Below, piece after piece: positions 3,254 through 40,842 of a DNA stretch of 41,033 nt. Position 1 is the first letter of the stretch, and the number at the start of each line of letters is the position of its first letter. The stretch is from a virus, in IMG/VR virus record IMGVR_UViG_3300010389_000040, positions 1 to 41,033 of that record; one strand, given 5' to 3'. Both the position numbers and the translations under genes were made by a program. Below the pieces are notes generated by a model. The model made no database searches. It worked only from the letters and a program-made list of their open reading frames with translations, and was not told the DNA's origin.

Positions 3254-3599
3254 TCTTGGAGATCGCGTGGACTTTTCCTCTGGCGACCTGGCCGGGGTGG
3301 TGGTGTGTGCCGTGTCGAAGGAAGGGTTTCGGGTGATCGCAGAAACCGCTGGGGTCGTGCCTATTGGCACCAATTCACCGGTCGAGTTCGATGAAAACGG
3401 TATCGCCGCAGGGCCAAGCATGCAGAAGTTGTCTGAAGCACGCACGCTCACGCTGGCAGAGTCGATTAATGTGTGCAACGAGGCCAGTCGGCTCATGCAG
3501 GTGCAAAGCCAGATCGGGCACCTCAAGGCAGAGTTCTCAAATCGCAGAACGCCCCCTGCCGGACAAGGCCCACGCGGTTCCAGCATTATCATGCCGTGA
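3231..3599 (+). CDS. Hypothetical protein, 122 aa
   Basis: Unrecognised. The start is ATG 3231, which has GGAGG eight bases upstream; it lies inside the end of groES. The N-terminal half is beta-rich (MKQYLLVDLGDRVDFSSGDL, then GVVVCAVSKEGFRVI), suggesting a small barrel. A helical stretch follows (about 67-104, LTLAESINVCNEASRLMQVQ), and a Pro/Gly-rich tail. It overlaps the following GTG start through GTGA, so translation is probably coupled. Its place directly after groES hints at an assembly role, without sequence support. Confidence 0.65.
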   Translation: MKQYLLVDLGDRVDFSSGDLAGVVVCAVSKEGFRVIAETAGVVPIGTNSPVEFDENGIAAGPSMQKLSEARTLTLAESINVCNEASRLMQVQSQIGHLKAEFSNRRTPPAGQGPRGSSIIMP

Positions 3600-3835
3600 G
3601 CAAAAAGCGCAACAAGGGGTGGTTTCCAAACGAAAACTCCTACAAGGGCCCTCGCGACCTGTATGGCGAGAAAAATCCATCAGCGATTTTGACCGCCAAG
3701 CAGGTACGCGAAATCCGCTGGCGCAAGCGGTTTACGCGCATCACAAATCAAGAACTGGCAGACGAATATGGAATCAAACACGGCAGCACCATCTCAAACA
3801 TTGTCAACAGGAAACGCTGGGGCCACATCAAATGA
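3596..3835 (+). CDS. Small HTH DNA-binding protein (HNH-endonuclease C-domain type)
   Basis: A 79-residue protein starting at GTG 3596, overlapping the previous stop by GTGA. The sequence GEKNPSAILTAKQVREIRWR, then ITNQELADEYGIKHGSTISN and IVNRKRW is the helix-turn-helix found at the C terminus of many phage HNH homing endonucleases. No HNH catalytic His-Asn-His is visible, so this is a stand-alone DNA-binding unit or the remnant of a homing endonuclease. It sits directly before the terminase nuclease gene (ATGA overlap). That position matters because homing endonucleases often invade terminase genes and the terminase here is split. Confidence 0.7.
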   Translation: MSKKRNKGWFPNENSYKGPRDLYGEKNPSAILTAKQVREIRWRKRFTRITNQELADEYGIKHGSTISNIVNRKRWGHIK

Positions 3836-4398
3836 CCGAAAACCCCGTATTATTCGTAGGCATTGATGTCGCCCATAAGCGTGACACGGCGGCACTGGTC
3901 GCCGTGGCAAGGGATCGCGAGGCAGATCGTATCTGGCGGTATGGCCATGTGATATGGAAACCCCCGGTCTTTATCCCCGACATCACCGCGTGTGCGCTAC
4001 ATATCCTCAACACGCGGCGTGTCGGGGCAATTTTATATGACCCTGCACAATTCGTCGGTGAGGCCCAGCGCCTCATCGACGCAGGGTTTGAGCATGTCCT
4101 ACACGCCATCAACCAACAAAGCATGATGGTCGAGGTGGCCAGCACGCTCCACAACCACATCCAGCGCCATGACTTTGTGTGCTACAAAGACGCAGAGTTT
4201 CGGGGCCAGTATTCATGGACAAATGCCGTGGCCACAGAGCGTGGCTATCGCATTGTGAAGATGAAGCAGTCGAGGCCCATAGATGCCGTGGTTGCAGAAG
4301 CGATGGCTCTGTGGGGCGCAAACCAAGACTTTGCACACATGTCCTCGCCAGCATACAGCGACAGCCAGCACGCAATTCCCCTCACGGATTTAGCATAG
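3832..4398 (+). CDS. Terminase large subunit, nuclease (RNase H-fold) part
   Basis: This 188-residue protein matches only the C-terminal nuclease domain of a TerL packaging motor, the part that cuts concatemeric DNA at the start and end of packaging. VLFVGIDVAHKRDTAALVAV gives the first metal Asp (D12), ILYDPAQF the second (D70) and SRPIDAVVAEAMALWGA the third (D151). The family pattern between them (EAQRLIDAG, Q-rich helix, CYKDAEFRGQYSWTNAVATERG, RIVKMKQS) is intact. No Walker A or B is present. The start is ATG 3832, which overlaps the HTH gene stop as ATGA; the open frame upstream to 3364 is a shadow of the neighbour. The matching ATPase part is a separate gene at 39583-40842. Confidence 0.87.
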   Translation: MTENPVLFVGIDVAHKRDTAALVAVARDREADRIWRYGHVIWKPPVFIPDITACALHILNTRRVGAILYDPAQFVGEAQRLIDAGFEHVLHAINQQSMMVEVASTLHNHIQRHDFVCYKDAEFRGQYSWTNAVATERGYRIVKMKQSRPIDAVVAEAMALWGANQDFAHMSSPAYSDSQHAIPLTDLA

Positions 4399-12384: not shown

Positions 12385-13275
12385 ATGGCAAATTTAGCAA
12401 AAATTTCTGGACGCTGGGTCAACCTCGACAAGCCCGGTGGGTTGGTGTTGTTTGTTGGTGGTGGCACAAGCGCCTACCAAGGCAAGGGGGCCAGTGACAG
12501 CAACAGCGGCTTGCACCCCGAAGAACCAATGTCCACTATTTCAAATGCGCTGGCCAAGGTGGTGACGGGTCGCGGTGACACGGTGGTCATTTTACCCGGC
12601 ACAGTCACGTTGACTGCTGGGTTGACGATTGATGAAGATGATGTCACGCTGTGTGGCGTTGAGGGTGTTGGCAGTGTTAATCCAAGCGCGATTGCAAACA
12701 CGCTGGCCGCGTCTGATGATGTGCTGGACGTGACCGGTGATAATGTAACCATTGAAGGGTTGCACTTCCCTGCAAGTGGCGCGGCGCTTACATCCCGAAT
12801 CAATGTCGGCGGCAGTGGGTGCGTTATTCGCAACAACACGTTTTTGTGCGGTGCAAATGACCTCGAAACCATCACGATCCCGGCGGCAGGTACGTATTGC
12901 ACAATTTCGGGCAATCGATTCGCCGTGACAGCAAACGGCCCAGACGCCGCGATTGAGATCGAGGCCGCCGGTGCGGCACATTTGTCGGTCTTAAATAATG
13001 TGTTTCATGGTGGCAACGACACCAATGCTTGGGATGCAGGTGCGGTCAATTCTGGCGCGGCCCATACACAGTGCCTTGTGAAAGGCAATGTTAGCAACTT
13101 TGGTGCAGCTATCGTCTTTACAGCGGCCGCAACCGGCGTGATTGCCAACAACTTCACTGGCGAAGGCACGTTGGGGTCTATGATTGATCCCGGATCATGC
13201 ATGTGCTTTGAGAACTACGAAGCAGATGCCATCGACGAGACTGCTCGCGTATTCCCTACCACAGCGGCAAGTTAA
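12385..13275 (+). CDS. Right-handed beta-helix structural protein
   Basis: A 296-residue protein with the short-strand repeat rhythm of a parallel beta-helix (pectate-lyase-like): GDTVVILPGTVTLTAGLTID, VTLCGVEG, NVTIEGLHFP, GCVIRNNTFLC, YCTISGNRFAV, HLSVLNNVFHGG, TQCLVKGNVSNF, GVIANNFTG. No catalytic residues are evident. It follows the capsid gene, so it is probably a head fibre, decoration or baseplate-type protein rather than an enzyme; an acidic C-terminal tail closes it. Confidence 0.75.
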   Translation: MANLAKISGRWVNLDKPGGLVLFVGGGTSAYQGKGASDSNSGLHPEEPMSTISNALAKVVTGRGDTVVILPGTVTLTAGLTIDEDDVTLCGVEGVGSVNPSAIANTLAASDDVLDVTGDNVTIEGLHFPASGAALTSRINVGGSGCVIRNNTFLCGANDLETITIPAAGTYCTISGNRFAVTANGPDAAIEIEAAGAAHLSVLNNVFHGGNDTNAWDAGAVNSGAAHTQCLVKGNVSNFGAAIVFTAAATGVIANNFTGEGTLGSMIDPGSCMCFENYEADAIDETARVFPTTAAS

Positions 13276-31600: not shown

Positions 31601-32512
31601 TATCTGAAGTACCGGTCTGATGATACCTTTGAAATCAATGGCCATGCAGTGCGTGATATTGTCAAAGAATTTGAACTTGATGAAGCGCTGGCGCTGGATC
31701 ACTTAGACCCCACGACACATTCGGGGTGGTCACGACTTGAAAAGGTGATGATGTCACCCGGACGCATCCCGGAGCGACAGGTGCGTGCCATTGCCGCGCT
31801 GGGCGCGTTTCGCAGAGCCACCGACAAGGGCATGAATTATGGACAGGCCAAAAAGTTTGTCGAAGAATTTGTCACCAAGCACAAGTTTTTCACTGGCAAA
31901 GAAGGGTCTGTCGCACTGCTGAGAAACCCACTCATGCAACATCTACTCATGTTTCAGAGTTGGTCGATTCACGAAGTGAACATGCACGCCGATCTGTTCA
32001 TGAAAATGGCAAGCGGATTTAAAAAGCTGAAATCCAATACCAGCGAACAGACCCGAATGGAAATTGTGGACGAAGAAATCATGCCCTTCATTTATCAGGC
32101 GATGGCGTTTTTGGGTGCCTATGGATTGGCAAATATGACCGGTTTTAATTTCCATGAGCGCATCGCGTCACCGGCTGTGGAGTTGGCAGATGCCGCGTGG
32201 AATGCGAAGTATGAACCGGTGATCCAAGCGCTGGAAAGTCGCATGGGGCTTAGTTATGCGGATGCGATGATCGAAACCGTCAAGGGCATGTTGGGTGAAA
32301 ATCCAGAGCCGGGAAGCAATCGGACATTCACGGAGAAATACCTGGCCCCCCAACCGGCGGCCAAATACATGAGCATGGAACGTCGTGGCGTGTCGCTATT
32401 TTCAAAAGAGGGCATTGTCGAGATTATTACGGGTGCCCGGCCCATTAAAGAGGGTCGGCGCAAGAAGCGCCCTCGCAGATCGAGGCGTCAGCGCCAGAGC
32501 GTTGGGTATTGA
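25601..32512 (+). CDS. Giant (2303 aa) probable ejection / polyvalent virion protein
   Basis: Largest gene of the window, last of the morphogenesis operon. N-terminal 130 residues are acidic and Pro-rich. Residues about 210-330 contain Gly/Ala-rich hydrophobic helices (AAGNIAGSLLPFGAVKMAMD, AAAIGMAFGLGLDVMMAMVP) suited to membrane passage. Residues about 419-590 are an exact 86-residue tandem duplication. A Pro/Gly linker lies near 630-665. A SAP-like segment (KGTKKKLSGLIVDRLARAG) lies near 1055. The C-terminal 600 residues include RRVAEYFPHLFPGSMGKRMS and VTWAYLRGASRKIN, a type I recall from very large phage 'polyvalent' proteins injected with DNA. No lysozyme, protease or polymerase motif was visible. 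It probably crosses the cell envelope with the DNA. Start ATG 25601 overlaps the previous stop by one base. Confidence 0.7.
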   Translation: MAKQPIANAILGTAEEEAPKMQTAQPSSLDVADTGVAQSPAPVDNMMAQQSPWPDDQPDEVPDPEPVDIPLEPLTAFTEDDRMEFGQMLDIASKLDGYDPHRPNMKKVIQLFVSEGHSLDDIRREADLNSPLGKWLGPEKMGPISDAIHAVGKELEGFGTGLVRSATLGAAEPREDMLAYDGNAWEFDEIPYLADPEVTGKFSEMFKDVSPSRAAGNIAGSLLPFGAVKMAMDKLFGVGKVAQVLASQPGASVSTQILGRTAPATEIAVGYAVADSGAEAFRLLNAGEEITADKIAQAAAIGMAFGLGLDVMMAMVPPALRGEFRKTLATEQVQDQAKRMRMQWEANQVDIEGIREGVERRANLLAAEAGIKEIGNRPSQRPRTQADIDKTHAAATAYEEKKALGLVRDPEDVLSDLQAKYGPNDPPADPNLEMRIKIRQLSDRLNDRGPTRPRSAASLNAEIEQDLLAAQEIADALRLSGADNASAASGEVLSEAESLLSQLQAKYGPNDPPADPNLEMRIKIRQLSDRLNDRGPTRPRSAASLNAEIEQDLLAAQEIADALRLSGADNASAASGEVLSEAESLLSQLQAKYGPENVVMDEYRDARVRARAIIRQSQETLDRLKSNIGGGGPDIPPPPPSGGTPPSSGPTSPTSGIPPAGAWPEGGEAWADAQVQGKSESALKNLRADMVGAREADPGNPHIHSVIAKIDSAIRDINADRNADKAVQATARQGDVPEGFEAPASEQPSTKKPMATMDETEQVDPVGITADDLTQQKADTGEPAPKSLQDMSTEDLEAAAMRIEDAEIAMGEAGGDPRLADVQVRLRAIQEELDRRGVYSRSDPSNLSGEELAQQQAQQHASAGQSPMSWDAFAEAKRATKPGIVDRAITRYYDEYIKAYNEAMATGPTELTPRSAAIEADPMGDMDAPRVTFGNKSRAGESDFAWANTMTKKGNVDVDYGGLPYKLSWKNEGGTARWTLTEREGKNTKPIWTYETGTGDGPSSAEIKAKVEEHASKMNQALANAKSIGTTVDAFMKKKSGVLQALAKDLGLASKGTKKKLSGLIVDRLARAGDRKLPPPDHTRLASLVMGKVGTSPPKNLREMLRAVAPDGVNFGALTGEMEDMPSHLFAQRIVRKNGGKPVDRVLQELESAYPGHGIKDASDLIEAMKNKDRMYGDMTDNVNERALTEAGDEAEDMLADTFKRGREDALNGDMPPDDTTFGDEQARQAYWGGYLSAAPDPYKDIWNMTLDEIEAQPHMNLTREGQMMFVEGLEDGVHNKKPVHYRRVEEAIKDGREVRPEVLEDYPSLQELYYEVNAQQGIDFFSPVDEDNMTEGWRVSSMRNNLENAKSPDEIDALLKSASDDVNATMERYENATDIGEKEVLAEELDDAVEALRLAEDYNLDSGGDTAPRTEATEAGQQGLIAGTGGRQVPMGPKQGGGADLEGLPLNPGARADLEAGGTQGSLLDMQAGGSRAQQVNTALANVEQRLKDLPEDSAEYSALSAQRDALRIEKINLERGGTTREHTPFFNPKATKKQRGQAFVLLNEMGIQHGTPEYKAILKRLGGVDSMNDLTVPQANKLISGLMNEKAVEEAARTESLLHEMEQLANRDKGDVRNEAVGVGAPEGYGREVSAVHPLSSPHSENLGLSRNEAGRRVVNAAVSAARSERQMTNQWAEMIHDFQQQAQLDVRDKHLVAQALDGQVRPASLNEVQRAGYEFYRDLYNEIAQQLGLPPDRRVAEYFPHLFPGSMGKRMSAVLARDLDLPTGDIVRGTQTMPHVPTEKMFRHLFPRTGEGAYMMDLDKVTWAYLRGASRKINQDPFLAVYASEIEKVPNNLVMKSEIADYARAVSGGQHKRRVATANRLEQSDAIKTGVESLIEWVAPPSAKGSLKTPESAIQFIDNLARVAQEPIPGTDIGRGTTRLERTRARVAMGIDEIFEQMKDPRQAPWVANNVYRAVVWQRLGLNVSWGLLNYSELLTNVMPGLNPRRTATALFDYLKYRSDDTFEINGHAVRDIVKEFELDEALALDHLDPTTHSGWSRLEKVMMSPGRIPERQVRAIAALGAFRRATDKGMNYGQAKKFVEEFVTKHKFFTGKEGSVALLRNPLMQHLLMFQSWSIHEVNMHADLFMKMASGFKKLKSNTSEQTRMEIVDEEIMPFIYQAMAFLGAYGLANMTGFNFHERIASPAVELADAAWNAKYEPVIQALESRMGLSYADAMIETVKGMLGENPEPGSNRTFTEKYLAPQPAAKYMSMERRGVSLFSKEGIVEIITGARPIKEGRRKKRPRRSRRQRQSVGY
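26855..27385 (+). repeat. Exact 258-bp tandem duplication
   Basis: Units at 26855-27112 and 27113-27370 appear identical base for base on reading both copies, and a third begins (GCAAAGTATGGCCCA) at 27371 before diverging. The unit is in frame (86 codons) and encodes a helical, charged segment (DPNLEMRIKIRQLSDRLNDR). Lack of any difference means a very recent duplication or an assembly artefact. Confidence 0.95.
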
Positions 32513-32537
32513 CAACCTGCGCCAGTCTTTGTACCAT
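32509..32537 (+). promoter_or_regulatory. Promoter of the candidate structured RNA
   Basis: TTGACA (32509-32514, overlapping the stop codon of the giant gene), an exact 17-base spacer, then TACCAT (32532-32537), which keeps the TA...T and A5 positions of a -10. Transcription should start near 32544. No open reading frame of useful size follows before 32812. Confidence 0.7.
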
Positions 32538-32543
32538 AGAATA

Positions 32544-32735
32544 TGACACAATGGTTGGCTCCGCTGTGTTCCCCCGGCCTGTCTCACCCCCCATGGACAG
32601 GTCGGGGCTAAACTAAAAACGAAATAGCATTGCGCCGCGAGACACCGCTTGGGGGAGAGCGATGTTGTTCGCGTGGGGAGGCGATGCTAAAAGGCCACAC
32701 TTGACAAATGAGTCAAGTGTGGCTATTTTTGTTTT
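32544..32735 (+). ncRNA. Candidate structured small RNA with anti-SD loop
   Basis: The region between promoter and terminator folds by eye into three hairpins before the terminator. A: stem ACACA/TGTGT (32546-32550/32565-32569) with a 14-base loop ATGGTTGGCTCCGC. B: a 12-bp stem (32572-32583/32596-32607, one G-U) with loop TCACCCCCCATG. C: a long imperfect hairpin, outer stem TAGCATTGC/GCGATGCTA (32625-32633/32681-32689, one G-U), inner stems CGCGA/TCGCG and CGCT/AGCG, apical loop TGGGGGAG. The C-rich loop of B could pair with the G-rich loop of C (kissing interaction). Loop A is complementary to the GGAGCCAACCAT start region of leftward genes. It could be a trans-acting regulator of translation. 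It is not tRNA, tmRNA or an RNA family I recognise. Confidence 0.6.
32694..32730 (+). terminator. Intrinsic terminator of the candidate RNA
   Basis: Perfect 12-bp stem GCCACACTTGAC (32694-32705) / GTCAAGTGTGGC (32712-32723), six-base loop AAATGA, then TATTTTTGTTTT. The stem contains TTGAC-N6-GTCAA, the same half-sites and spacing as the operator-like dyads at 1521 and 39472. Confidence 0.85.
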
Positions 32736-32811
32736 ACAATAAAAATCCACGGCCAACGCCAACCCTCACCAAGCAGGGGGCGCTGGCCAAAACAACACAA
32801 AGGAGCGAGCC

Positions 32812-33630
32812 ATGGAAAATGACACACTTGCAACACACATCATCATGTCGTATGAGGCCGGCCTTGCCGCCGACTACACGGACATTGGCCCCATTGGGGA
32901 GATCGGCCAAGATCGTGAATACCTCGGCATGTCGGGTGCTGGTCGGTGCCAGCGCCAACTTGGCCTGTCGGTCACGCCACAGGTTGATCGCAAACCCGAC
33001 AGCATCGAAACAAAGGCCATCTTCAAAGATGGCTACCTGTTTGAAGCTGACACTGTGGCGCGTTTGCGTGCTGGTGGTTTGGAAATTGAAGACCAACAGC
33101 AAGAAATGGTGCATGATGAATTTCCCGAAATCAAAGGCCATCACGATGGTTTGATCCGCATCGAGGGGGAATGGGTTTTGCTCGAAATCAAATCCATGCG
33201 ATCATACCCACAGGCAAAGGTTTTGGGTACACGTGGGCGCGGCAAAAACGCCATCAATGAAAATGTTGTCGGCCAGCGTGCCGGTGGGTTTACGCTGGCA
33301 TCGGGCGTTATTGAGGAAACCAATCAGCCCTATTGGGCGCAGGTGCAGGTGTATCTGAGGTCGCTGGACTTGCGGCGTGCCGCGATGGTCTGCCGGTTTA
33401 AAGAAACGGGCCAAATCGCCGTTGAGATTATCGAGCGAAACGATGCCGCCGCCGATGGGTATTTGGCCAAGTTGGCGAACATCATGAACCATGTGCAAGA
33501 GGGCATGGTGCTACCTGCTGACCACCACCCCGGCGTGGATTGGCAGTGCAACTATTGTGACTATTTGGACGTGTGTGATGGGTCGAACCGTGGCCTGTTG
33601 ACCATCGAGCAATTTTTGGAGGTGAAATAA
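32812..33630 (+). CDS. PD-(D/E)XK exonuclease, Cas4/RecB-like, with Fe-S-type cysteines
   Basis: A 272-residue nuclease that should resect DNA ends for recombination. KGHHDGLIRIEGEWVLLEIK gives the motif with D112, E125 and K127; YWAQVQVYLRSL supplies the usual Gln helix. One N-terminal Cys (C46 in GAGRCQRQL) and three near the C terminus (C246, C249, C255 in CNYCDYLDVC) match the four-Cys [4Fe-4S] arrangement of Cas4 and AddB-type nucleases. The SD AAGGAG is clear. The next gene starts two bases after its stop and is a candidate annealing protein, so the two form a phage recombination module. There is no CRISPR array or Cas1/Cas2, so a CRISPR role is not indicated. Confidence 0.87.
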   Translation: MENDTLATHIIMSYEAGLAADYTDIGPIGEIGQDREYLGMSGAGRCQRQLGLSVTPQVDRKPDSIETKAIFKDGYLFEADTVARLRAGGLEIEDQQQEMVHDEFPEIKGHHDGLIRIEGEWVLLEIKSMRSYPQAKVLGTRGRGKNAINENVVGQRAGGFTLASGVIEETNQPYWAQVQVYLRSLDLRRAAMVCRFKETGQIAVEIIERNDAAADGYLAKLANIMNHVQEGMVLPADHHPGVDWQCNYCDYLDVCDGSNRGLLTIEQFLEVK

Positions 33631-35444: not shown

Positions 35445-36224
35445 TTATGAGATTGCCTCTTTGTAGTGTTGTATTTTTGCGATTCGCGCCGGGTGACGCA
35501 ACGCGGCAAAACTTTTTTCCAGTATCTGCCGCACGCGCTCCCTGCTGATGCCGTGGCGATCTCCAATCTCTTGATAGTTTTGGTCATGAATGACGCGAGA
35601 GAGAAATATTTCACGGCTGCGGTCGTCTAACACATCCAAAACACCAAAAACCTCCGGCCCCCATTCCCCGGTGTATTCCGGGTCATGGCTTTGCAGGTGT
35701 TTGTCCTGCCAGTGCGGTTCTGTTTCTGTGTCGATGCCATCAAAAAATACATCATGCTGGCGTGCCAGCGTGGCCTTTTCATATCGCCCCAGCGACCACC
35801 CCAGCGCCCGACACAATTCTGCCGGGCTTGGTTTTCGGCCCAAGTCATGCGCCATGGCGTTTTCTGTCTTGTTCAATTTCAACCCATCGGCAAACTGATT
35901 GCCCGGCATGGGCCGCAAATTTGAGCGCTCAACTTCCATCATAATTCGTTTGAGTATGTGCCATCGCACATACGTTGCAAAACGCCCAGCGCTGGGTGTG
36001 TATTCCTCTGCCCCTTCGCACAATCCCAACATGGCGGCCCCAATTAGGTCGCCCAGGTCGGTGTGTGCCGTGTTTTTCTGCTTGGCAAATTGCACAGCCA
36101 TGCGCGTACATCTGCGGATCAATTCCGGCTTTGACTGTGGCCAGTCTTTCAAGAGTTCGGCTTCGTCGGCCTTTGTAAGTGGCCGGGCATCGCTTGTGTT
36201 GAGTATGCTGTCCAGTGTCTGCAT
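35445..36224 (-). CDS. Sigma-70 family RNA polymerase sigma factor
   Basis: A 259-residue sigma factor that should redirect host RNA polymerase. Region 2 is at about 55-100 (HTDLGDLIGAAMLGLCEGAE, TPSAGRFATYVRWHILKRIM), the core-binding and -10 recognition part. Region 3 follows (NKTENAMAHDLGRKPSPAEL, ALGWSLGRYEK). Region 4 at about 200-245 (DDRSREIFLSRVIHDQNYQE then IGDRHGISRERVRQILEKSF) is the -35 helix-turn-helix. There is no region 1.1. The start ATG has the leader AGGAGCCACAC. It could switch on morphogenesis genes; its promoters cannot be named, though the three best promoters here share TTTG just before or one base from the -10. Confidence 0.93.
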   Translation of the reverse strand: MQTLDSILNTSDARPLTKADEAELLKDWPQSKPELIRRCTRMAVQFAKQKNTAHTDLGDLIGAAMLGLCEGAEEYTPSAGRFATYVRWHILKRIMMEVERSNLRPMPGNQFADGLKLNKTENAMAHDLGRKPSPAELCRALGWSLGRYEKATLARQHDVFFDGIDTETEPHWQDKHLQSHDPEYTGEWGPEVFGVLDVLDDRSREIFLSRVIHDQNYQEIGDRHGISRERVRQILEKSFAALRHPARIAKIQHYKEAIS

Positions 36225-36233
36225 GTGTGGCTC

Positions 36234-36299
36234 CTATCGCTGTTTCAATACCGCACTCAAAAATACAATGATCCAAAAAATGATAATAACCCATGTCAT
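36234..36299 (-). CDS. 21-residue transmembrane micropeptide
   Basis: A tiny frame between the HTH gene and the sigma gene. Its ATG overlaps the upstream stop as ATGA, with GGGGGA six bases before. Its stop TAG is part of the TAGGAG SD of the sigma gene. The product opens MTWVIIIFWIIVFLSAVL and ends KQR: one hydrophobic span with a basic end. Tight coupling on both sides supports translation. It may act as a membrane toxin, host-enzyme modulator or translational coupler for the sigma factor. Confidence 0.55.
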   Translation of the reverse strand: MTWVIIIFWIIVFLSAVLKQR

Positions 36300-36517
36300 G
36301 AATCATCCCCCAATAAAACGTATTCCGCAACTGCTGTCTGTTTGTCCAAGCGTTTGTACTGGGTTTCGATCCGGTACCCCATTCTGCGCAACTCTAAAAT
36401 GCGAGCGCCCAAACGAAAGCACCCAAACTTGTGCAATGCGTCAAGCGGTGTTAGTGTTGCGCCGGTTTTGAGGTGTGCCAGTATGCGCCCGGCTTGTGTT
36501 TTTGGGTTTGGTTCCAT
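36296..36517 (-). CDS. Small winged-helix/HTH protein, 73 aa
   Basis: Contains AGRILAHLKTGATLTPLDAL, then FGCFRLGARILELRRMGYRI and a C-terminal hairpin with AEYVLLGDD. This matches the small helix-turn-helix family common in prophages ('ITPLEALxxFGCxRLAxRI' from memory). It probably binds DNA. Leader AAAGGAGCCACAC before ATG 36517. It precedes the micropeptide and sigma factor in the same operon. Confidence 0.75.
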   Translation of the reverse strand: MEPNPKTQAGRILAHLKTGATLTPLDALHKFGCFRLGARILELRRMGYRIETQYKRLDKQTAVAEYVLLGDDS

Positions 36518-36537
36518 GTGTGGCTCCTTTGCGGTTT

Positions 36538-36570: not shown

Positions 36571-36882
36571 TTATCGCCCGGCGTAATCATCTGCCAGTAT
36601 GCGCCCGGACATGACCGCCCGGTATTCGTTGCGGTTGTCTGCGTGGCATGCCAGTGCGTAACGTGCTGCGGCGTGCCGGGCCTTGCGTGGGTAATGTTTT
36701 GCCAATTTCAACATCATGCGAGCAACATGCATGTAGGACTGGCCCACATTAACGCGGCCCATGTGGTGCCGGATTTGGCGCTGATCTCCATCACCCAAGC
36801 GCCATGCTGGATCACATGCACACACAAGGCCTTCGTCGGGGTTGTGTTTCATTTTGCAGGTTTTACACGTCGTCAACGTCAT
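36571..36882 (-). CDS. Cys-containing hypothetical protein, 103 aa
   Basis: N-terminal CKTC (C6, C9) and CAC (C21, C23) could bind zinc. A basic helical region follows (ARMMLKLAKHYPRKARHAAA, RYALACHADNR). The leader is TAAGGAGCCAAGC before ATG 36882. Function unknown. Confidence 0.65.
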   Translation of the reverse strand: MTLTTCKTCKMKHNPDEGLVCACDPAWRLGDGDQRQIRHHMGRVNVGQSYMHVARMMLKLAKHYPRKARHAAARYALACHADNRNEYRAVMSGRILADDYAGR

Positions 36883-36892
36883 GCTTGGCTCC

Positions 36893-37090
36893 TTATGATT
36901 TTATGGGTGATATGCACCGGTGCAACTGGTTTTTTTGCGTTTCGTCAACAATCATCAATTCAAACCATTCCGCAATGTTTGCGCCTTCCACGGCCGCGTC
37001 AATGCCTTTTTTATACGCTTCTGCTTCCTCGTATGTGCTGAATGGTTCCATGTGTGGCTTGCTGGCCACAAACCCAATTACATAAAACAT
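36893..37090 (-). CDS. Hypothetical protein, 65 aa
   Basis: Begins MFYVIGFVASKPHMEPFSTY followed by EEAEAYKKGIDAAVEGANIA: a short strand, then a helix, typical of small phage proteins with an 'F-x-T-x-EEA' motif. Start at ATG 37090 with AAAGGAGCCAAGC; the longer open frame upstream lacks an SD. The next gene (36882) starts 10 bases after its stop. Confidence 0.65.
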   Translation of the reverse strand: MFYVIGFVASKPHMEPFSTYEEAEAYKKGIDAAVEGANIAEWFELMIVDETQKNQLHRCISPIKS

Positions 37091-37109
37091 GCTTGGCTCC
37101 TTTGTGATT

Positions 37110-37553: not shown

Positions 37554-38252
37554 TTATGCTTGTATCTGGATAAAGCCGGTATCTCTACCGGCCGTTTTTG
37601 CTCTTGTTTGGCCTTTCGATTTAAGGCCCACGACAACGCTGACGGGGTCTAAAAATCTCAGGTCATGCGCGTCACCGTCTATCACGCTATAACCATGGTG
37701 TGTGTCGGGTACATCATCAAAAACCATGGCAACATTAAACCCGGCCATGATTGCGTTTTGAGTGTCAATCTGTGTCCAACTGCACCCGGCGGAAACCGTC
37801 ACATGGTAATTGGGCATGCTCGGTATATCTTGCCATGGGCGTTTTGTATAATCAAAAAATTGCACTTTTGGAAACATATCAAAAATTGTCACCGGGCCGC
37901 CCATGACAGGCATGCGCCACCATGGCAAATCGCTGAACGTATTTAAACGGCATGCCAATTTGAGGCCGGTGCTTTTTGCTGTTTTCTCTGCAAGTTTCAA
38001 CTCGCCCAAGAGCATGGCCCAAAAAATGTCACGATCCTGAAAGAACAGGTTTGTTCTTTCAATTCGCGCGTTTATCACATTTGGAAAAATCCCCCGGCCA
38101 GCGGTAAATATGCATGCCTCCTCGCATCCGTCGGAATACTGGCATGTATTATATCCGCTGATCCGGTGCGGTGCCAGTTCAAGATTGACCTGCAAATAAC
38201 CATGCCGGTGCGCCTTTAATGCTTTGGTATTCTGTTGGGTTAATATCTTCAT
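37554..38252 (-). CDS. Phage protein with conserved three-Cys motif, unknown function
   Basis: A 232-residue protein that I recognise as a widespread phage family of unknown function. Landmarks are GYLQVNLELAPHRISGYNTC, then SDGCEEACIFTAGRGIFPNV (C37, C43, C47), RIERTNLFFQDRDIFWAML, LACRLNTFSDLPWW, FPKVQFFDYTKRPW, and near the end VIDGDAHDLRFLDP with VVVGLKSKGQ. The C-x5-C-x3-C cluster, followed by a barrel-like strand/helix pattern, could hold a metal or Fe-S cluster; this is inference. The leader is AGAGGAGCCAACC immediately before ATG, a 12-base exact complement of the candidate RNA loop. Confidence 0.8.
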   Translation of the reverse strand: MKILTQQNTKALKAHRHGYLQVNLELAPHRISGYNTCQYSDGCEEACIFTAGRGIFPNVINARIERTNLFFQDRDIFWAMLLGELKLAEKTAKSTGLKLACRLNTFSDLPWWRMPVMGGPVTIFDMFPKVQFFDYTKRPWQDIPSMPNYHVTVSAGCSWTQIDTQNAIMAGFNVAMVFDDVPDTHHGYSVIDGDAHDLRFLDPVSVVVGLKSKGQTRAKTAGRDTGFIQIQA

Positions 38253-38268
38253 GGTTGGCTCCTCTGGC

Positions 38269-38451
38269 TTAAAGGTGTTGTGTCAGGATTTCAACGGGCT
38301 TGTTATCAACTGCCATCAACCAAACATGCACCATGTGGCGCTGGTGCTTTGTGGGCCGGAAATATGCGCATGCATCGTCATGGGCCTTTTTGCTGTTTGG
38401 TGCGTTTATTTCAATATCTTCGGCGCGGAAATATGCCTTATAAGTGTTCAT
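38269..38451 (-). CDS. Hypothetical protein, 60 aa
   Basis: Small protein: MNTYKAYFRAEDIEINAPNS, then KKAHDDACAYFRPTKHQRHM and a final strand with HVWLMAVDNKPVEIL. The strand-helix-strand pattern recurs in small phage early proteins. Leader GGAGCCAACCAC before ATG 38451. Confidence 0.65.
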   Translation of the reverse strand: MNTYKAYFRAEDIEINAPNSKKAHDDACAYFRPTKHQRHMVHVWLMAVDNKPVEILTQHL

Positions 38452-38470
38452 GTGGTTGGCTCCAAATAAT

Positions 38471-38505: not shown

Positions 38506-38751
38506 TTATTCTTCGTCAATGGCTCCGCTGCTGGTCATAAACTCATATGCCTTATTCAATACCAGAGTGGCTTTTGGTATGTCGTTAATGCGCATGGCGT
38601 CTGTTGTTATCCATTCGCCGTTTTCGGTTTGAACACGGCGCACAAGTTGGACACGGCGACATGTAAACCGGCGCCCGTTTTTCTCGTGCGTTTCCTCAAA
38701 AACCATGGCCGACATTGGGCCATGTCTAAAGGTGATTTCGGGTTGTTTCAT
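38506..38751 (-). CDS. Hypothetical protein, 81 aa (possible nucleic-acid binding)
   Basis: Beta-rich N-terminal half (EITFRHGPMSAMVFEETHEK, RRFTCRRVQLVRRVQTENGE), then MRINDIPKATLVLNKAYEFM, a helix. From memory the same plan (four-strand sheet plus helix with 'NDLPKAxxxLxKAYEY') occurs in small proteins of mobile elements; it resembles PC4-like single-strand binding folds, but this is uncertain. Leader AAAAGGAGCCAAC before ATG 38751. Confidence 0.65.
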   Translation of the reverse strand: MKQPEITFRHGPMSAMVFEETHEKNGRRFTCRRVQLVRRVQTENGEWITTDAMRINDIPKATLVLNKAYEFMTSSGAIDEE

Positions 38752-38790
38752 GTTGGCTCCTTTTGTGTTGTGGGGTGGGTGGTTGGGGAT

Positions 38791-39234
38791 TTAAAAAAGG
38801 TTTGCTTCTTTCATGCTCAAAAAGCGCTCCGGCCCCACAATGATGTGGTCTAATAATTCAATCCCTAAAACGTCGCCTGCCTGGGCAAGTCGGCGCGTCA
38901 ACTCTATATCTTCCCGGGTGGGCGTCACGTTGCCGGATGGGTGGTTGTGGGCGACGATCACGGAAACGGCATTGTTTAATAGGGCCGTTTTGAATACTTC
39001 GCGCGGGTGAACAAGTGAGGCGTTCACGGTGCCGATTGACACAACATCCTTGCTCATGATCTGATTGCGTGCGTTCAAGTGAAAGCACACAAAGCGCTCA
39101 CGGTCGGCGCGTTTTTCTTCTTCCAGCAATCCGGCAACATCCGCCGGGCATGTCATGCTCATGATGGATAAGGGCGCGTTGTCGGCGTCGCGTACAATCT
39201 CACATTTTAATAGTCTAAGTCTTGGCGTTCCCAT
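38791..39234 (-). CDS. radC: RadC-like JAB/MPN domain protein
   Basis: A 147-residue protein with the RadC core: ERFVCFHLNARNQIM, VHPREVFKTALLNNAVSVIV, the metal motif HNHPSGN (H96, H98) with D109 in TPTREDIELTRRL, and ELLDHIIVG. It lacks the N-terminal helix-hairpin-helix region of chromosomal RadC and so is the short mobile-element form. The JAMM-type site is intact, so it may be a metallo-protease or nuclease acting on DNA-repair or defence components; its biochemical role is not settled in the family. Leader AAAGGAGCCAACC before ATG, a 12-base exact complement of the candidate RNA loop. Confidence 0.92.
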   Translation of the reverse strand: MGTPRLRLLKCEIVRDADNAPLSIMSMTCPADVAGLLEEEKRADRERFVCFHLNARNQIMSKDVVSIGTVNASLVHPREVFKTALLNNAVSVIVAHNHPSGNVTPTREDIELTRRLAQAGDVLGIELLDHIIVGPERFLSMKEANLF

Positions 39235-39251
39235 GGTTGGCTCCTTTGGGG

Positions 39252-39446: not shown

Positions 39447-39582
39447 GTTTTTCCTCCTTTGATGTGATGGATTGACTTATATGTCAATATTAATATAAAA
39501 CCACCAAAAAAACAAGGCTAAAAAATAACATTATTGTCAAGTCCTTTTTTATTTTTGGGCCTGTTTTCGTATATTCCATGGC
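39447..39582. promoter_or_regulatory. AT-rich divergent control region with operator dyad
   Basis: Rightward promoter TTGACT (39472-39477), 16-base spacer, TATAAA (39494-39499). Its -35 lies in the dyad ATTGACTTATATGTCAAT (39471-39488), which matches 15 of 18 bases of the site at 1520-1537. A leftward promoter for the small-gene operon is likely here too: TTGTTT (39515-39510), 17 bases, TAATAT (39492-39487) is the best I can find, with the dyad lying downstream of its -10. A T-rich run at 39541-39557 could also end leftward or rightward transcripts, but no stem was found. Confidence 0.6.
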
Positions 39583-40842
39583 ATGATACCAAACACAAAA
39601 ACCAGGACCGGCATGACGGGTCATTTTCCGGCCCCTTATCAATATGGAATCGAGCCGACCGCAAACCCGGCACAATGGCCACCAATCCCAAAAGGGCATG
39701 AGAGAATACCGAATAATCCATGGGGTCTCACGCAGCCAACAAACCCAGCATGGGCGGATCGTTACCAAGCGCACATGACCGAAATCATAGAGCGTGAATA
39801 TTTGCCCATCTCACCGGCAAACCAACAGCCCGAAGGCGAGCCCGGCGCATGGCTTCAACCTTTCCAAGTGCGAATCCTCAACCATTGCTTTACGCCTCGC
39901 CTTTGCTCGGATGGTTTGTACCGATTCCCATACCATACCATCATATACAGTGATTTGAAAAAATCAGGCAAAACCGGCATGGGTGGTGCAATTTCCTATG
40001 GTTGGTCCAGGTTGGTCGGTGGTGAATTGTACCAACTGGCCAACAGCAAAAAACACAGCGCCGACCGAGCCTATAACCGCATGTTTATGTTCTTGTCCTA
40101 TCTTGAACGCACAAACCCGGCACGCTATCACAAAGAGGTGAAAAGCCGGGGCTTGGAACGCATGGAATCGACCGAAAAAACGGAAGATTTACCATATTGG
40201 CGCATGGAAGCGTTGCCAGTGTCAGCAGGGTCAAGCGCCGGGGGCTTTCAATCGCTCACCGTGTGGGATGAATTATGGAGTTATGAACACGATGAAGCGG
40301 TGCGTTTATTCTCCGAAATGCAACCAATCAGCACGCTACCACCGGCCCAAATTATGCATGAAGGTGCGCCAGTTTCGGTGCAATCGCCCAGCCTCCGGCT
40401 GATTGTGACCTATGCAGGGTACCATGGCGTGAGTGAATTATTGTGGCAATTATACGAGCAAACAGTCAAACCCGATGGCGACACATTGACACCTACCGGG
40501 ATTAAAGCGGATGGGTTGGAAGACCTCCCATGTTATGTCTCCGACGATGGTGGCGTGTTCGCATATTGGAACCAGGACACCCCCCGCATGCCATGGCAAA
40601 TCCCGGCCTACTTCGAGCAAGCGCGCAACGATCCTATCAACCGGCTCCGGCCTGAGGAGTATGCCCGGCTTCATCGCAACCAGTGGACAAGCGCCCATGG
40701 TGCGTTTCTTGACATGGCCCAATATGACGAATGCGCCAACATCGGCGAGGCGCTCCACCTGGCCAACCGCATCGACTGGACGCCAGCCGGGTCGCACATC
40801 GAGATGGCGCGACATGAGATCACGCGAAACCGGCACCGATAG
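39583..40842 (+). CDS. Terminase large subunit, ATPase part
   Basis: A 419-residue protein carrying only the motor domain of TerL. LQPFQVRILNHCF is the N-terminal adenine-binding region, SDLKKSGKTGMGGA the Walker A (K130), SLTVWDELWSYE the Walker B with D229 and E230, and LIVTYAGYHGVSELLWQLYE the coupling motif. FAYWNQDTPRMPWQIPAYFE and LHRNQWTSAHGAFLDMAQYD form the linker that normally runs straight into the nuclease domain. Here the protein stops about 30 residues later with an unrelated tail (TPAGSHIEMARHEITRNRHR). The nuclease domain is a separate gene at 3832-4398. No SD is visible before ATG 39583; ATG 39613 is an alternative. Confidence 0.88.
   Translation: MIPNTKTRTGMTGHFPAPYQYGIEPTANPAQWPPIPKGHERIPNNPWGLTQPTNPAWADRYQAHMTEIIEREYLPISPANQQPEGEPGAWLQPFQVRILNHCFTPRLCSDGLYRFPYHTIIYSDLKKSGKTGMGGAISYGWSRLVGGELYQLANSKKHSADRAYNRMFMFLSYLERTNPARYHKEVKSRGLERMESTEKTEDLPYWRMEALPVSAGSSAGGFQSLTVWDELWSYEHDEAVRLFSEMQPISTLPPAQIMHEGAPVSVQSPSLRLIVTYAGYHGVSELLWQLYEQTVKPDGDTLTPTGIKADGLEDLPCYVSDDGGVFAYWNQDTPRMPWQIPAYFEQARNDPINRLRPEEYARLHRNQWTSAHGAFLDMAQYDECANIGEALHLANRIDWTPAGSHIEMARHEITRNRHR

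Follow-up and report, generated by a model that had tools for sequence, protein, structure and literature searches.

In the 41,033-nucleotide stretch of viral DNA that was analysed here (IMG/VR record IMGVR_UViG_3300010389_000040; the window), a candidate structured RNA has a hairpin whose loop mirrors the ribosome-binding sites of most leftward genes, and thus is predicted to be able to switch them off together. That this RNA base-pairs with the leader shared by these genes and lowers their translation as a group is, in our judgement, somewhat probable. The argument is built on the sequences themselves, on complementarity and its statistics, on a predicted fold and on a leader/anti-leader pair that is conserved in unrelated large phages. 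A group repressor of this type had been proposed in a sequence-only reading of the window, and the pairing on which it depends has gained weight, both from interaction energies that surpass two null models and from the conserved loop/leader pair found elsewhere, whereas the repression is a step that we infer. Most phage regulatory RNAs known so far have a single phage gene or genes of the host as their targets; with a loop that matches the leader shared by a whole block, an RNA would have a simple post-transcriptional way of turning down a group of genes.

The candidate RNA extends on the plus strand from about position 32544 to 32735 and has a predicted folding energy of −89.1 kcal/mol (z = −6.62), a stability that none of 200 shuffled sequences attained. 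Upstream lies a promoter-like sequence, TTGACA-17-TACCAT (32509–32537, +), which is a consensus match only and would place the start site at about 32544. The end of the rightward structural operon is at 32512, and no terminator lies between that point and the first hairpin. In the predicted fold, hairpin A (32545–32570, +), in which GACACA and UGUGUU enclose a 14-nt loop, is followed by hairpin B (32572–32607, +) with the loop ACCCCCCA and by a central branched domain (32616–32692, +) with an exposed UGGGGG. Modelling gives a weak indication that the loop of hairpin B could form a 6-bp kissing pair with this UGGGGG at 32650–32655. The RNA ends in an intrinsic terminator with a 13-bp stem and a U-rich tail (32693–32735, +). 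Such a terminator, together with an origin from a promoter-like sequence of its own or from a 3′ UTR, is what a small regulatory RNA should have, and both are recognized here from sequence only. No Rfam family matches the candidate, either at the gathering score or up to E = 10.

The terminator stem also holds a palindrome, TTGAC-N6-GTCAA, that overlaps a promoter-like sequence for the downstream exonuclease gene, TTGACA-17-TATTTT (32701–32729, +). The palindrome occurs at 1521–1536 (one mismatch), 32701–32716 and 39472–39487, overlapping −35-like boxes, and the copies at 1521 and 39472 sit in two divergent control regions. These palindromes are likely operators of a phage regulator. Furthermore, the segment UCUCACCCCC of hairpin B (32582–32591) is a 10-base complement of the leader of a DNA methyltransferase gene (start 871, −), a weak match that could be due to chance.

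The loop sequence of hairpin A, AUGGUUGGCUCC (32551–32562, +), is the exact complement of the leader GGAGCCAACCAU. On the minus strand the corresponding 12-mer, GGAGCCAACCAT, is found without mismatch at 32551–32562, 38251–38262 and 39233–39244, the latter two being the starts of a GP88-family gene (38252) and of radC (39234), and with one mismatch at 38452–38463. This agrees with the earlier claims of an exact complement at radC and at the gene for a three-Cys protein, which is better named a GP88-family protein (PF17338), and of 11 of 12 bases at the gene starting at 38451. Twelve sites lie within two mismatches of the 12-mer, as compared to 4.7 ± 2.1 in shuffled sequences. The longest complementary runs between the RNA and the leaders are 12, 12, 11, 9, 8 and 8 bases; the leaders of the genes at 38751, 37090, 36882 and 36517 and of the sigma factor gene (36224) have 7–9 complementary bases, as had been noticed for five further genes including the sigma factor, and the 7-base match of the 36517 and sigma leaders falls within hairpin A. 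The motif GGAGCCA-ATG occurs seven times on the minus strand and not at all on the plus strand, so that it is confined to the leftward strand. The loop is less exposed than originally supposed: UUGGCU is left unpaired within the 14 nucleotides, as predicted, while UGG and CCG may form a small inner stem, so the loop is not fully open.

The probability of such complementarity arising by chance was estimated from dinucleotide shuffles of the 299-nt intergenic stretch: 0 of 1000 contained 12 bases complementary to any leftward leader, and 3 of 1000 contained 11. When the whole intergenic space on either strand is taken into account, the 12-base match becomes a coincidence of roughly 1%. Since the leaders resemble each other, the match counts as one coincidence and not as nine independent ones, and since CUCC is the anti-Shine–Dalgarno sequence, the loop match is partly generic.

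The same bases could also be regarded as the remnant of a leftward gene start, i.e. a minus-strand leader that has lost its gene, an option that was already mentioned in the sequence-only reading. The minus strand indeed reads AACACAGCGGAGCCAACCATTG, which is leader-like and is followed by a frame of 49 codons. However, the codon score of this frame (−0.14) equals the antisense background (−0.15 ± 0.09), the frame runs antisense into the gene for a 2303-aa protein, similarity stops at the leader-like bases, and both the promoter-like sequence and the terminator are on the plus strand. We consider such decay the least likely explanation, with hardly any probability left to it.

Predicted interaction energies, in which the accessibility of both partners is counted, point to pairing of the RNA with the leftward leaders. 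When 41 start sites were scanned, nine of the ten best belonged to eight leftward genes and the exonuclease gene, with energies of −10.3 to −16.3 kcal/mol and with all nine predicted pairings covering the Shine–Dalgarno sequence and start codon; the tenth was the methyltransferase. On the minus strand, the most favourable energy is that for the gene at 38751 (leader and start 38749–38762, −16.3 kcal/mol), where pairing reaches the upstream AACACA, followed by the GP88-family gene (38250–38264, 12-base complement, −15.9), radC (39232–39246, 12-base complement, −15.3), the gene at 37090 (37088–37102, −14.6), the gene at 38451 (38449–38463, 11-base complement, −14.4), the sigma factor gene (36222–36236, −12.1), the gene at 36882 (36880–36894, −11.9) and the gene at 36517 (36515–36529, −10.3). 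Pairing is predicted to be extendable through the 3′ arm of hairpin A to CACA upstream of several Shine–Dalgarno sequences. The mean energy for the twelve leftward leaders plus the exonuclease leader (13 sites) is −11.8 kcal/mol, a value that was reached by none of 160 dinucleotide-shuffled RNAs (mean −6.2 ± 0.8) and by none of 100 RNAs with a randomized loop in which CUCC was kept (−6.3 ± 1.1). The comparison with shuffled controls that the earlier reading had called for thus comes out in its favour, and the accessible complementarity to start regions exceeds that of the controls, as would be expected of a trans-acting small RNA, at the level of prediction.

The position of the exonuclease gene in this series brings up another function. 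The RNA could be a cis element of the exonuclease operon, consisting of a structured leader and terminator in which hairpin A sequesters the exonuclease Shine–Dalgarno sequence on read-through transcripts. The order of promoter, structured RNA, terminator and gene fits such a function, the exonuclease leader is the partner of hairpin A in the minimum-energy fold of 32513–32811, and the predicted energy for leader and start of this Cas4/RecB-type exonuclease gene (32795–32814, +) is −14.6 kcal/mol, with pairing in cis if read-through occurs. On the other hand, a separate promoter-like sequence for the exonuclease gene lies within the terminator, overlapping the palindrome of the 1521 and 39472 control regions, and a cis element leaves the exact match to the leftward leaders unexplained. 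We find this explanation improbable. Slightly less probable still is that the RNA targets host messages and that the phage leaders match because they are similar to host leaders. Phage small RNAs such as PreS do act on host genes (PMC12197685), and GGAGCCAA leaders occur in many unrelated phages, but the rightward genes of this phage lack the leader, which argues against a general host-imposed sequence.

No close relative carrying the RNA or the early region, in which loop and leaders could be compared, was found by a DNA search of phages or among relatives of the structural genes. A protein search with the exonuclease gave only two matches, both remote, and searches with the portal, the 2303-aa and a 408-aa protein gave no relatives that share the early region. 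Portal and capsid profiles yielded about 30 relatives, with capsid protein identities of up to 75%; those of which other regions are readable have almost only structural genes in common with the window and do not share its early region. Capsid relatives were not found in bacterial and archaeal genomes. A search of viral contigs for the loop-plus-stem pattern returned seven matches, none of which forms a hairpin-A-like structure; one of them, L011, is an ATPase-leader locus of the kind discussed below. With respect to genome organization, the large terminase seems to be split, with genes for an ATPase half (39583–40842, +) and a nuclease half (3364–4398, +) located far apart, and the two halves are likewise separate in relatives G011, G012 and G031, by up to about 20 kb. 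In G031 (L086–L088) a homologue of the gene at 12385–13275 runs across both ends of the record, so that the 45 kb of this relative may represent a whole genome in circularly permuted form.

A similar combination of leader and hairpin was encountered in other phages. Scanning viral contigs for relatives with the leader AAAGGAGCCAASCATG provided at least 120 stretches, including those of a phage group with records of up to 349 kb that have an AAA+ ATPase gene, phrog_1250 (T4 nrdC.10 family). The leader of this gene is AAAGGAGCCAACCATG. The 3′ UTR of the gene contains a hairpin, located 10–1731 nt past the stop codon in the loci that were measured, whose loop has GGUUGGCUCCG at its end. An intrinsic terminator comes next, and in many cases a promoter-like sequence and the following gene lie beyond it. 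Thirteen records show the exact pattern, and each of them has a single copy of the hairpin. Among the matches listed, all 28 of the 28 testable ATPase records have the hairpin together with the leader GGAGCCAACC, and it is present in 0 of 91 other leader-bearing loci; these counts are stem-based, stems around CATGGTTGGCTCC being only the reverse strand of the leader. Loci L125, L147, L196 and L203 were too short, and here the hairpin was verified on the complete records, while L158, which ends after the leader, was left out of the count. The same 3′-UTR hairpin and terminator, matched to the phrog_1250 leader, were seen in L220–L226, L100 and related loci.

In an alignment of 20 sequences of this hairpin, pairing is complete (100%) in both stems, with double changes at five pairs, GGUUGGCUCCG is invariant, and stem covariation amounts to 0.248, where slid controls do not exceed 0.098; three more members (L139, L145, L155) have a shifted stem. 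Loop and leader are both invariant in the ATPase-linked group and the stem varies, with the reservation that the leader itself was the search term; this builds in part of the leader's conservation but none of the hairpin's. In bacterial and archaeal genomes, a 17-mer across the loop has 21 copies, where about 30 are expected by base counting, and none of these chance copies is part of a stem of at least 6 bp. GCAC...GUGC flanks the ATPase leader, and the third positions of codons 2 and 3 of the ATPase gene are conserved at 1.0 and 0.96, against an average of about 0.6 downstream; flanks and near-fixed synonymous positions together suggest that the leader itself is displayed in a loop. Distant homologues of the nrdC.10 family (PA5oct, Vibrio D506) have neither the leader nor the hairpin. 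The PA5oct record (L227:1367–1985) has an annotated putative lncRNA near its nrdC.10-family gene. The phrog_1250 leader/hairpin pair is apparently undescribed, and the hairpin may provide feedback on a single operon.

These phages also bear on the possibility that the window RNA is real but has another role, such as 3′-end protection or protein binding, and that its loop is a generic CUCC anti-Shine–Dalgarno loop whose match to the leaders was extended by chance. The further hairpins and the possible kissing pair point to a folded RNA with additional functions, most leader-bearing loci do without such a hairpin, and a chance match at the corrected level given above is conceivable. Nevertheless, loop randomization with CUCC kept never reproduced the interaction pattern, and unrelated phages conserve the same loop against the same leader. 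We regard this alternative as unlikely, although it deserves more weight than the other alternatives.

In group repression through leader pairing, the RNA would be transcribed from its own promoter-like sequence and/or derive from the rightward structural operon, as its 3′ UTR. Loop A would then pair with the Shine–Dalgarno-to-start region of the leftward genes, i.e. radC, the GP88-family gene, the sigma factor gene and small genes, and also with the exonuclease leader, which would block ribosome binding at these starts. The direction of the effect would be downward, the leftward genes being lowered together as the RNA accumulates; on read-through transcripts, the RNA may in addition affect the exonuclease in cis. 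As the RNA lies at the structural operon's 3′ end, its level could go up along with late transcription.

Several phage RNAs are known to work by base pairing. The c4 antisense RNA of P1 and P7 has hairpin loops that pair with the ribosome-binding site of a phage mRNA and block translation (PMC12197685; PMC5320573). The window RNA likewise has a loop complementary to a ribosome-binding site, but it differs in size and fold, gives no match to the C4 covariance model of Rfam even at E = 10, and would address a target common to many genes, whereas c4 controls the ant message. The sar RNA of P22 and the OOP RNA of lambda also base-pair with phage mRNA (PMC12197685). They are encoded opposite their target; the window RNA, at 32.5 kb, is several kilobases away from its main predicted targets at 36.2–39.2 kb and so falls outside this cis-encoded antisense class. 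In the literature on related themes nothing closer to the window RNA was found. The best model, reasoning from sequence, is that it represents a variant of the phage base-pairing RNAs, c4- or sar-like in its working and outside the Rfam families. In T4, RegA is a translational repressor. RegB inactivates early mRNAs of the same phage at GGAG motifs, and according to a review of T4, no small trans-acting RNA of this phage had been functionally characterized (PMC3014915). The targets of both proteins are the translation initiation regions of phage messages, a logic similar to that proposed here, for which the window candidate would be an RNA counterpart. The hairpin of the ATPase phages shares with the window the loop GGUUGGCUCCG, the leader GGAGCCAACC, the terminator and the subsequent promoter for the next gene; the loops differ at their edges only, but stem, genes and genome size are unrelated. 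Moreover, leader and hairpin are on one transcript in the ATPase phages, with one fully complementary leader per record, whereas the window RNA would act in trans. It is possible, and we propose it tentatively, that hairpins keyed to the leader GGAGCCAACC are used by unrelated phages in different ways: for feedback on the ATPase through loop–loop pairing in the large phages, and as a group switch for leftward genes, comparable to RegA and RegB, in the present one. The conserved pair in the large phages offers a family in which leader pairing can be tested.
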